Shown here one piece after another: positions 6,377-17,662 of a stretch of 37,430 bases of DNA (position 1 is its first letter; each line of letters begins with the position of its first letter). The stretch covers positions 1 to 37,430 of the forward strand of contig DVID01000021.1 in the NCBI GenBank assembly GCA_018711625.1, given 5' to 3'. Below the pieces are notes generated by a model, which did no database searches, had not been told where the DNA came from, and worked only from the letters and a program-made list of their open reading frames with translations. The position numbers and the translations under genes are program-made. The DNA is from Candidatus Limicola stercorigallinarum. GTDB taxonomy: Bacteria; Actinomycetota; Coriobacteriia; Coriobacteriales; Coriobacteriaceae.

Positions 6377-6820
6377 TCACCTCAACTTATCAAGTTCATC
6401 AAGAAACTCATCGATATCCTGAAAGTCACGATACACCGAAGCAAACCTGATGTAGGCAACCTTATCGATCTTTTCCAAACGTTTAAGTACCATATCGCCA
6501 ATATCGTGCGAAGAAACAGCAGTGAGCGTGCGACCCCTCAGCTCAAGCTCAATATCGTCAATAAGGGTATTGAGCTGAATTAGGTCAATATCGCGCTTTG
6601 CTGTGGCACGCATAAGACCCACCAGCAATTTATTGCGATCAAACGGCTGCGTAGAGCCATCGCTCTTAATAACTTCAATGGGGTCTTCGCATCGTTCGAA
6701 GGTTGTGAAGCGATATCCGCAAGAGCGGCACTCGCGCCGGCGCTTGATAGCGTTAGATGCTTCCTGCAAGCGAGAATCGACGACTCGTGTATCGTCCTTT
6801 CCGCATTTAGGGCAACGCAT
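6377..6820 (-). CDS. nrdR: Transcriptional repressor NrdR
   Basis: NrdR is an ATP/dATP-sensing zinc-ribbon repressor of ribonucleotide reductase genes. At 147 residues it is the standard length. The N-terminal zinc ribbon has Cys3 and Cys6 (MRCPKCG) and Cys31 and Cys34 (CRSCG). An ATP-cone domain occupies about 49-139, starting at VIKSDGSTQPFDRNKLLVGL. GAGGAGG precedes the ATG. It overlaps the start region of dut and probably forms an operon with it. Ribonucleotide reductase genes are not in the window. A NrdR-box-like sequence lies upstream of its own start, so autoregulation is possible. Confidence 0.97.
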   Translation of the reverse strand: MRCPKCGKDDTRVVDSRLQEASNAIKRRRECRSCGYRFTTFERCEDPIEVIKSDGSTQPFDRNKLLVGLMRATAKRDIDLIQLNTLIDDIELELRGRTLTAVSSHDIGDMVLKRLEKIDKVAYIRFASVYRDFQDIDEFLDELDKLR

Positions 6821-6983: not shown

Positions 6984-7403
6984 TCAACTATGCGCGGCAA
7001 CCAGGAGCGTGTCTCCCGGTTGAATCAGCCCGCCAGAAAGATTGTTCCAGTCCTCAATAAGATGGGTGACTTCCTTTGTGGACACACCTGCCACCGGATA
7101 CGACTCAGCAAGAGACCACAGGGAATCGCCTGCAGAAACAGTAACAGCCTGAAGCTCGGTAGATTCGTAAGCAGCCTGATAAGCCTGAGCAGGTGCATCA
7201 AGCACCATGTACGCACCCGCGAGCAGAACGAAAGCAAAGAGGCCCACCATGATAAGTGCGCAGCGTTGGTGCAGCTGGGCCATAAAAGAAGGCCCCTTAG
7301 CGTCAACACGAGCAGAGCCGCCGTCAATAACGGTGAACGATTGATTACCATATACGCGAGGCTTCAGCGCCAGAGAGCCATTAACAGGATACGTAGTCAT
7401 CAT
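6984..7403 (-). CDS. Membrane-anchored LysM protein, SOS-controlled (YneA-like)
   Basis: This small 139-residue protein has a cytoplasmic N-terminus of about 48 residues, one transmembrane helix (about 49-67, ALIMVGLFAFVLLAGAYMVL) and a C-terminal LysM domain (about 86-136: VTVSAGDSLWSLAE ... LIQPGDTLLV) placed outside the membrane. LysM domains bind peptidoglycan. Size, topology and position divergent from lexA match the SOS cell-division inhibitors YneA of Bacillus and the LysM proteins next to lexA in other actinobacteria (Rv2719c/ChiZ type). The promoter TTGACA-N16-CATAAT contains a LexA box in its spacer and another just downstream. Inference: it delays septation during DNA damage. The start at 7403 follows AAGGAG with 6 nt spacing. 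There is no hydrolase domain. Confidence 0.8.
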   Translation of the reverse strand: MMTTYPVNGSLALKPRVYGNQSFTVIDGGSARVDAKGPSFMAQLHQRCALIMVGLFAFVLLAGAYMVLDAPAQAYQAAYESTELQAVTVSAGDSLWSLAESYPVAGVSTKEVTHLIEDWNNLSGGLIQPGDTLLVAAHS

Positions 7404-7470
7404 GAGGAACTCCTTATCTCGATCTGCACGCTTGTTATACCGTCCCGTCCGGACAAATAGTTCTAGCGTG

Positions 7471-7484
7471 AGAACGGATGTTCG
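7471..7484. promoter_or_regulatory. LexA box 1
   Basis: AGAACGGATGTTCG; the reverse strand reads CGAACATCCGTTCT, a near match to the Gram-positive LexA consensus CGAAC-N4-GTTC. It covers the likely transcription start of the LysM gene. Confidence 0.88.
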
Positions 7485-7490
7485 GTTATT

Positions 7491-7518
7491 ATTATGTTCG
7501 AACAGTTGTTCTTGTCAA
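7491..7518 (-). promoter_or_regulatory. Promoter of the LysM gene
   Basis: On the minus strand TTGACA (7518-7513) is followed after 16 bp by CATAAT (7496-7491), a strong sigma-70-type promoter. LexA box 2 lies within the spacer, so LexA binding would block RNA polymerase directly. Confidence 0.75.
7499..7512. promoter_or_regulatory. LexA box 2
   Basis: CGAACAGTTGTTCT, centred exactly 28 bp from box 1 and 28 bp from box 3. It lies in the spacer of the minus-strand promoter and overlaps a weak plus-strand -35 candidate (TTCGAA, 7497-7502, with TAAAAA at 7520-7525) for lexA. Confidence 0.92.
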
Positions 7519-7526
7519 GTAAAAAT

Positions 7527-7540
7527 CGAACAATTGTTTG
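7527..7540. promoter_or_regulatory. LexA box 3
   Basis: CGAACAATTGTTTG, 17 bp upstream of the lexA start codon and immediately after the putative lexA -10. It is suited to autorepression of lexA. Confidence 0.9.
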
Positions 7541-7557: not shown

Positions 7558-8199
7558 ATGGCACGAAACATTTCTAAGCGCCAGCAACAGATCTACGACT
7601 TCATCCGGTCGTATCAACTTGAGAAGGGCTATCCGCCAAGCGTTCGTGAAATGGCGGCTGCTGTGGGTCTTTCCTCCCCTTCCACGGTTCATGCGCATCT
7701 CAATGCCCTTGAGGAGCGTGGCCTCATAAAGCGTGATGCCACGAAACCGCGTGCACTTGAGGTTTTTAACGAGGATGGCAGCTCCGCCAAGCTGGCAGAG
7801 GTTAACGAATCTCCCGACCGGGGATCTATCACGCTGCCCCTTGTCGGTCGTGTTGCAGCCGGCTTGCCAATTTTGGCCGAGCAAAACGTCGAGGACACGT
7901 TTACCGTTCCCACCGAGATTGCAACCGATTCGTCTTCCTTTGTGCTTGAAGTGCATGGGGAGTCGATGATCAACGCAGGAATCTTTAATGGAGACTACAT
8001 CATTGTTCGTGAGCAAAAGACGGCCATGAACGGCGAGATTGTAGTTGCCCTTATTGATGGCGAGGCAACGGTAAAGACGTTTTACAAGGAGCGGGGCCGT
8101 GTGAGGCTCCAGCCCGAGAACGAAACTATGGAGCCCATATACGCTGAGAATCCCATCATCTTGGGCAAGGTCGTTGCATTGATGAGACGCTTCTCATGA
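7558..8199 (+). CDS. lexA: SOS repressor LexA
   Basis: LexA represses DNA-damage genes and cleaves itself when stimulated by the RecA filament. The 213-residue protein has an N-terminal winged helix (ISKRQQQIYDFIRSY ... YPPSVREMAAAVGLSSPSTVHAHLNALEERGLI, residues 5-57). The self-cleavage site is Ala101-Gly102 (VAAG), and the catalytic pair is Ser136 (GESM) and Lys173 (ATVKTF). The Shine-Dalgarno is GAGAGGGG at 7544-7551. Three LexA boxes lie upstream, indicating autoregulation and shared control with the divergent LysM gene. The stop codon overlaps the next start as ATGA, so the downstream membrane-protein gene should be co-translated and rise with SOS induction. Confidence 0.97.
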   Translation: MARNISKRQQQIYDFIRSYQLEKGYPPSVREMAAAVGLSSPSTVHAHLNALEERGLIKRDATKPRALEVFNEDGSSAKLAEVNESPDRGSITLPLVGRVAAGLPILAEQNVEDTFTVPTEIATDSSSFVLEVHGESMINAGIFNGDYIIVREQKTAMNGEIVVALIDGEATVKTFYKERGRVRLQPENETMEPIYAENPIILGKVVALMRRFS

Positions 8200-8906
8200 G
8201 CAACCATGCTCGCATAGCGCTCTTCGATATCCTGCGGGGATTTACCATAGTCTCTATGGTTGCCTTTCATGCAACCTATGACCTGGTCTACATTTTCCAC
8301 GTTGATATCCCCTGGTTTGGGCTTACGCTTGCTACCGATGTGTGGCGCTGCTCAATTTCGTGGACCTTCTTGCTCCTCGCTGGATGGATGACGAGCTTTT
8401 CACGCAATAACATGCGCCGGGCTGCGACCTACGGAGCGGCTGCCTTAACGGTCTTTCTCGTTACCACTGTTGCGGCTGTGGATACACCCATTTCCTTTGG
8501 CATCCTCTTCTGCATGGCAGCATGCACCCTGATGCACGCACTGTTACAGCCGCTTCTCGATCGCGTCAATCCGAGCATAGTCGTTGTGGTTACGCTCATG
8601 CTTTTTGCTGTAACCTACCAGCTTCCCCGTACAACCTACAGCATCGAGGGGCTTGCATGGCTCGGTTTTCCATCGGCCAGCTTCACCTCGGGAGACTACT
8701 ACCCCATCATCCCCTACTTCTTTATGTATGAGGCAGGCGCTGCGTTGGCACGTCTCTTTGCGAAAACGCATCCCGATGGATACCCATCATGGATGGAACG
8801 CAATTGGTGTCCACCCCTTGCCACGATAGGCAAAATGAGTCTGCCCATCTATCTCATACACCAGCCCGCAGTGCTCGTGATTTTGACCCTCATATTTGGA
8901 GCGTAG
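8196..8906 (+). CDS. DUF1624 / HGSNAT-like membrane protein coupled to lexA
   Basis: This 236-residue polytopic membrane protein has about seven hydrophobic segments. The N-terminus RIALFDILRGFTIVSMVAFHATYDL (quoted in parts: FDILRGFTIV, FHATYDL) is the signature of the DUF1624/heparan-alpha-glucosaminide N-acetyltransferase-like family. The arginine-glycine after the aspartate and the histidine in the first membrane helix are conserved there. A second conserved region, GKMSLPIYLIHQP, near the C-terminus resembles the acyltransferase-3 type tail. Relatives transfer acetyl groups across a membrane to sugars, but most bacterial members have no known substrate. Its ATG overlaps the lexA stop (ATGA). 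It ends 4 bp before the convergent hflX. A possible role is envelope modification during stress; this is inference from position only. Confidence 0.72.
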   Translation: MSNHARIALFDILRGFTIVSMVAFHATYDLVYIFHVDIPWFGLTLATDVWRCSISWTFLLLAGWMTSFSRNNMRRAATYGAAALTVFLVTTVAAVDTPISFGILFCMAACTLMHALLQPLLDRVNPSIVVVVTLMLFAVTYQLPRTTYSIEGLAWLGFPSASFTSGDYYPIIPYFFMYEAGAALARLFAKTHPDGYPSWMERNWCPPLATIGKMSLPIYLIHQPAVLVILTLIFGA

Positions 8907-17633: not shown

Positions 17634-17662
17634 ATAGTAGGCGAACAGCTGTTCGCCGTCAA
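17634..17662 (-). promoter_or_regulatory. Promoter of recA
   Basis: TTGACG (17662-17657), a 17-bp spacer and TACTAT (17639-17634) form a strong promoter on the minus strand, with the start codon 25 bp downstream of the -10. The rest of the 284-bp gap to cinA shows nothing else convincing. Confidence 0.85.
17642..17655. promoter_or_regulatory. LexA box of recA
   Basis: CGAACAGCTGTTCG, a perfect 14-bp palindrome, fills almost the whole recA promoter spacer. It matches the boxes at lexA. Confidence 0.96.

Follow-up and report, generated by a model that had tools for sequence, protein, structure and literature searches.

The region between lexA and a divergent LysM gene in the window (the whole stretch of DNA analysed, 37,430 nucleotides of a Candidatus Limicola stercorigallinarum contig) is probably an SOS control switch between lexA and a YneA-type cell division inhibitor. 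In the explanation that we favor, and think likely as a whole, two opposed promoters would share one symmetrical −10 block placed midway between two LexA boxes, and the inhibitor gene would have a second, PafBC-type promoter. Sites, their conservation, two mutually exclusive lexA promoter types, and a PafB/PafC-like gene pair were computed; from these we infer start points, repression, polymerase competition, PafBC action, and the division-inhibitor function.

The lexA-LysM locus and its LexA boxes

Gene identification placed lexA at 7558 to 8199 on the plus strand (TIGR00498, 231 bits). Its product is 92% identical to LexA of Collinsella sp. An2, and the source genome is that of a Coriobacteriaceae member near Collinsella and Enorma. 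The LysM gene, a predicted YneA-like SOS division inhibitor, lies at 6984 to 7403 on the minus strand and encodes a protein with a C-terminal LysM domain (PF01476 at residues 88 to 135, 9e-8) and a single predicted membrane segment, hydrophobic at about residues 49 to 66 of the translation as judged by eye. The locus thus has the features of YneA-type genes: divergence from lexA with LexA boxes in between, and a membrane segment combined with a C-terminal LysM domain. The protein scored 52.1 bits against the NF010723 YneA equivalog model, short of the 60-bit cut-off; it is therefore described here as YneA-like in its working and not as a strict YneA equivalog. The LysM gene is followed by nrdR (6377 to 6820, minus strand, TIGR00244), an order kept in most relatives. 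On the other side, the gene for an HGSNAT_cat/acyltransferase-like membrane protein (8196 to 8906, plus strand) has a 4-nt overlap with the lexA stop and probably shares a transcript with lexA.

Three LexA boxes lie between the divergent genes: box 1 at 7471 to 7484 (AGAACGGATGTTCG; core GAACGGATGTTC, 7472 to 7483), box 2 at 7499 to 7512 (CGAACAGTTGTTCT; core GAACAGTTGTTC, 7500 to 7511), and box 3 at 7527 to 7540 (CGAACAATTGTTTG; core GAACAATTGTTT, 7528 to 7539), the last leaving 18 nt to the lexA ATG. A preliminary description of this DNA had the boxes exactly 28 bp apart, which we confirmed for starts and centers alike, and it had placed them between a divergent LysM gene and lexA, an assignment borne out by gene and motif identification. 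Single boxes with at most one mismatch show no excess in the window (14 found, 12.7 expected from shuffles). However, of 300 dinucleotide shuffles, 1 gave a triple of boxes within 45+45 bp and 0 gave an equally spaced triple, so the cluster is not due to chance.

The same genome also has palindromes of the GAACN4GTTC type upstream of recA, ruvCAB (L010), and a Y-family polymerase gene (L012), the gene names having been read from translations and the SOS regulon sampled by pattern search; the motif of the array is therefore the genome's SOS box. The box upstream of recA (CGAACAGCTGTTCG, 17642 to 17655) is within the spacer of a TTGACG-N17-TACTAT element on the minus strand. Sequence and gene context together indicate that the sites of the array are probably LexA (SOS) operators of the GAAC-N4-GTTC type. 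At some other loci (L079, L141, and L180 to L183, among others) an additional LexA box lies downstream of box 3, close to the lexA promoter or within it.

The predicted LysM gene promoter, P1 (7491 to 7518, minus strand), consists of TTGACA (7518 to 7513), a 16-nt spacer, and CATAAT (7496 to 7491), with box 2 inside the spacer. This promoter had been pointed out in the preliminary description and is indeed present, and its counterparts match at 10 to 11 of 12 positions in all 60 relatives, while the same promoter search around box 1, around box 3, or at random places mostly gave 4 to 8 of 12. Box 1 lies over the predicted P1 start, in agreement with the earlier proposal that it covers the LysM start point.

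A candidate PafBC-type promoter of the LysM gene

The leader of the LysM gene contains, some 50 bp past P1, a predicted second promoter (TTTGTCCGGACGGGACGGTATAAC, 7457 to 7434 on the minus strand) that the first reading of the sequence overlooked. This element, P2 (7434 to 7457, minus strand), reads TTTGTCCG...TATAAC with TGTC-N12-TA spacing; the start of TTGTC is 17 nt from TA, matching the spacing of the PafBC (RecA-NDp) promoter consensus, tTGTCRgtg-8nt-TannnT (PMC5656591). The exact consensus letters TTGTCR...TAnnnT do not occur in P2, which has TTGTCC and TATAAC, and the form TGTCAG...TAnnnT is found in other Coriobacteriia. Across loci, TGTC-N12-TAnnn(T/C) was present in 57 of 60 Coriobacteriaceae rows and at 33 of 44 other loci; control spacings of 11 or 13 gave at most 1 of the 60 rows and 0 of the 44 loci. 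The TGTC-N12-TA motif was absent from all 13 loci of a family that we call Eggerthellaceae-like (f3) from its tree position and was seen at 1 of 14 loci of Bacillota. A conserved TATAYC-N-GGACA block was considered as a lexA element and dropped, as it is present also where lexA has a downstream promoter; its spacing fits the other strand, and we therefore assigned it away from lexA.

The genome of the window encodes two adjacent WYL proteins whose best PDB matches are PafB/PafC chains (6sj9 and 7p5x); the sequence match is remote, and NCBIfam gives the pair no name. A tandem PafB/PafC-like WYL pair on the minus strand of a Coriobacteriaceae genome (G000:C47, L151:240 to 1169 and 1159 to 2187) adjoins a helicase-like gene. 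Among the 51 genomes scored for both motif and tandem pair, a count that excludes G218 and G069 for their doubtful WYL pairs, the motif was present in 26 of 33 with the pair and in 1 of 18 without it (Fisher p 5e-7, the genomes being related). The sole exception, G172, is a Coriobacteriaceae genome without WYL matches, and its site, TGTCTT...TAGAGC, is decayed. P2 presence thus tracks the PafB/PafC-like pair; within Coriobacteriaceae and Atopobiaceae alone the association is not significant (p 0.12), and the losses of the motif in the Eggerthellaceae-like family may be one event. Three Atopobiaceae loci, L170 (G193), L172 (G002), and L175 (G060), have neither a WYL pair nor LysM similarity at the locus, and at lexA they have just two close boxes, 18 bp apart.

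Five relatives have a TGTCAGA form of the site, with 29 occurrences compared to 0 in the reversed control. These precede genes for LysM, an SbcD-like phosphoesterase, RmuC, an SNF2-type helicase, an HD/OB-fold nuclease, and others; several are at genes unrelated to repair or without identification, so that the gene set is partly one of DNA repair. Inspection by eye found no PafBC site upstream of recA in the window, and the near-mycobacterial pattern TTGTCNG-N10-TANNNT has two sites in the genome, neither at a recognized DNA repair gene. In G003, a Cas9-like gene (L186:3 to 1478, minus strand, recognized by eye) starts 22 nt after a PafBC-type motif, TGTCAGACC...TATGCT, and is possibly a damage-linked CRISPR gene.

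It could be argued that TGTC-N12-TATAAC is some other conserved feature of the leader and not a PafBC promoter, since the last letter of its −10 is C and the genome has few exact copies of the mycobacterial consensus. We consider this unlikely given the exact spacing, the direction, and the tracking with the PafB/PafC-like pair, and also because other families have the fuller TGTCAGA form and the motif marks a gene set that partly belongs to DNA repair. With P2, the division inhibitor would be inducible both through cleavage of LexA and by PafBC, a regulator activated by ssDNA; if active, PafBC would add LysM gene transcription from P2 independently of LexA.

Two predicted lexA promoter types and the spacing of the boxes

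Transcription of lexA most likely starts from a promoter across box 1 that overlaps P1 and is opposed to it. The predicted lexA promoter (7464 to 7492, plus strand) consists of TAGCGT (7464 to 7469), a 17-nt spacer holding box 1, and TATTAT (7487 to 7492), with box 2 over the predicted start. The −10 block that the two promoters would share (TATTATTATG, 7487 to 7496) reads TATTAT on the plus strand and CATAAT on the minus strand, and its center, 7491.5, falls exactly halfway between boxes 1 and 2. P1 has a perfect −35, whereas that of the lexA promoter is a poor match to TTGACA (2 of 6), weak yet conserved in matching loci.

Comparison of relatives separates two kinds of lexA leader, long (at least 48 nt from box 3 to the ATG) and short (14 to 41 nt; 18 nt in the window). 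At all 50 distinct long-leader loci, four from Bacillota among them, the GTTTG end of box 3 provides a TTGnnn −35 with a −10 at 16 to 18 bp, nearly always 17, and this box-3 promoter is present at none of the 55 short-leader loci of Coriobacteriaceae and the Eggerthellaceae-like family. At 53 of these 55, T(T/A/G)Gnnn stands instead at the upstream edge of box 1, 16 to 18 bp from TAnnnT (40 of 42 Coriobacteriaceae and 13 of 13 Eggerthellaceae-like loci); it was seen at 0 of 50 long-leader loci, the element pattern having been picked after viewing the alignments, so that these counts describe the loci and are no independent test. The two lexA promoter types are mutually exclusive and follow leader length. 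The strongest support for a box-1 lexA promoter comes from the Eggerthellaceae-like set, whose −35 hexamers are better (TTGCAT and TTGCGT).

The preliminary description had set the lexA −10 just before box 3 and probably misplaced the promoter. With a −10 in the A-rich stretch at 7520 to 7526, box 3 would be the lexA start-site operator, and a TAAAAAT-like stretch does lie there at a fitting distance from the ATG. However, the stretch is equally A-rich in Coriobacteriaceae with an obvious lexA promoter downstream (L043 and L046), it has neither a conserved TAnnnT nor a conserved −35 at 16 to 18 bp upstream, and the box-1 element is seen only where the downstream lexA promoter is missing; we therefore regard this placement as quite improbable.

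In the LexA tree, all Coriobacteriaceae fall in one clade, with long-leader members in an unresolved fork; the Eggerthellaceae-like family stands apart from the short-leader Coriobacteriaceae, and long-leader Atopobiaceae lie beside the latter group. This placement suggests that the lexA promoter changed on two separate occasions, although the key branch is not firm (93/88). At L128 to L137 and L144 to L146 of the Eggerthellaceae-like family, the divergent gene between the array and nrdR has no recognizable LysM motif; its product is short, with an N-terminal G(T/S)SAL-type motif (e.g., RYPVNGTSALQP) and a C-terminal hydrophobic segment. Since Coriobacteriaceae LysM proteins have a similar N-terminal motif (GNLAL or GSLAL), the gene in the Eggerthellaceae-like family may have lost its LysM part.

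Each of the 60 Coriobacteriaceae rows examined has the triple array ahead of lexA, and three strict boxes are present in 168 of 398 Coriobacteriia genomes of a class-wide sample. Comparison of the spacing in relatives, proposed earlier as a check, came out in favor of its conservation: both gaps are 28 bp in 53 of the 60 Coriobacteriaceae rows, and the remaining rows are 1 bp off in one gap. All 43 distinct arrays of the Eggerthellaceae-like family have 28 bp between boxes 1 and 2, and 27 to 29 bp between boxes 2 and 3; in other families the gaps are 23 to 32 and 26 to 33 bp, respectively, and the boxes themselves are kept. Grouped by leader, all 55 distinct short-leader loci have 28 bp between boxes 1 and 2, and at 11 of the same 55 loci the gap between boxes 2 and 3 has slipped by 1 bp (27 to 29 bp). 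At long-leader loci the first gap ranges from 23 to 32 bp and is 28 bp in about a quarter. The best explanation is that boxes 1 and 2 are fixed at 28 bp because of the geometry of the shared promoter, which accounts for their spacing better than phasing between LexA molecules does.

The loci are related, and the invariance in Coriobacteriaceae partly reflects descent. Inheritance of the spacing from one ancestral Coriobacteriaceae array, with nothing holding 28 bp, would suit the close relationship of many loci and the single clade in the LexA tree; that it is the whole explanation seems to us rather improbable, since at the same loci the second gap has slipped in 11 of 55 and the first in 0 of 55, and the deep Eggerthellaceae-like group has the same 28-bp lock in 43 of 43 distinct arrays. 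Least probable, and in our view very unlikely, is the proposal carried by the preliminary description that three LexA dimers bind cooperatively or sequentially through 28-bp phasing and induce the two genes at different times. In its favor are the 28/28 spacing, exact in the window and in 53 of the 60 Coriobacteriaceae rows, and the existence of other multibox SOS promoters, E. coli recN and lexA (PMC10714372, PMC5152588). Against it, 28 bp is about 2.7 helical turns, a non-integer number that leaves the boxes without a common helix face; the second gap is 1 bp longer or shorter at 11 of the 55 short-leader loci; both gaps take values between 23 and 33 bp elsewhere although the three boxes are retained; and three boxes added at the E. 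coli lexA promoter lowered the observed Hill coefficient (PMC5152588). Helical phasing of all three boxes was likewise rejected, as the gaps span most of a turn across the class and the boxes are retained.

With the shared −10 block, box 2 would lie in the spacer of P1 and box 1 at its start, and box 1 would lie in the spacer of the lexA promoter and box 2 at its start. Because each of these boxes sits in both promoters, LexA on either would block both genes, and DNA damage would open both promoters. RNA polymerase would serve one direction at a time because the −10 is shared, so that the lexA and LysM gene directions would compete for it. Box 3 would be inherited; it overlaps the lexA −35 in most other Coriobacteriia, and in the window, where the leader is short and the box-3 promoter is gone, it would probably act on lexA alone, as one more block downstream. 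The LysM protein, for its part, would stop septum synthesis in the fashion of YneA (PMC13396833). The chances seem to us evenly balanced for a wider proposal: that lexA lost its box-3 promoter twice, once in Coriobacteriaceae and once independently in the Eggerthellaceae-like family, and each time took the opposite side of the inhibitor's −10, creating a bidirectional promoter with symmetric LexA operators, 28 bp fixed, and polymerase competition, while PafBC would provide the inhibitor with a promoter independent of LexA, one subject to decay in lineages that lose PafBC.

Relation to known systems

Membrane-bound division inhibitors encoded beside lexA are already known (PMC6851548). As in B. 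subtilis lexA-yneA, Staphylococcus sosA, Mycobacterium chiZ/Rv2719c, and Corynebacterium divS, the predicted LexA-controlled inhibitor adjoins lexA, and like YneA and ChiZ it has one membrane segment and a LysM domain (PMC6851548, PMC13396833, PMC3989709). The divergent gene of the Eggerthellaceae-like family resembles SosA and DivS in having no detectable LysM domain. Unlike yneA-type loci, the locus described here has a triple box array, a predicted shared −10, and a lexA promoter that appears to have moved over box 1.

A PafBC motif facing the rv2719c operon has been reported next to lexA in M. tuberculosis (PMC8151990), and other Actinobacteria are also said to have RecA-NDp motifs (PMC8223512). 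The predicted P2 resembles mycobacterial PafBC/RecA-NDp promoters in the spacing of its elements and in the presence of a PafB/PafC-like pair in the genome (PMC5656591); it differs from them in its TGTCCG and TATAAC. Shared −10 promoters are common in E. coli, with divergent starts 10 to 23 bp apart (PMC12825309). The candidate here is similar, with one −10 read both ways and predicted starts about 15 bp apart, whereas the symmetrical flanking of the shared −10 by two LexA operators, read here from the DNA sequence, sets it apart from the E. coli bidirectional promoters. Several LexA boxes at one promoter are found also at E. coli recN, which has three (PMC10714372), and at E. coli lexA, which has two with moderate cooperativity reported (PMC5152588); by comparison, the present boxes are of the GAACN4GTTC type, serve divergent genes, and lie in the spacers of two opposed predicted promoters.

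The literature on LexA with Collinsella and on PafBC with Eggerthella yielded no work on this region, and we found no report of the lexA promoter switch, its link to spacing, or a PafBC-type site in Coriobacteriia in a search that mostly covered papers outside subscription. The lexA promoter switch and its tie to operator spacing thus appear to be new, and the type of locus is known. Here the conservation of operator spacing is accounted for by promoter geometry rather than by repressor cooperativity, with relatives that have the promoter elsewhere serving as natural controls for the argument. If the explanation is true, lexA and the block to division would be coupled because they compete for a single promoter core, and the division inhibitor would be the point where the LexA and PafBC damage pathways, each independent of the other, converge. 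Such dual control would then occur in a deep class of actinobacteria whose members are common in the gut, which would add to the reports on Rv2719c of M. tuberculosis.
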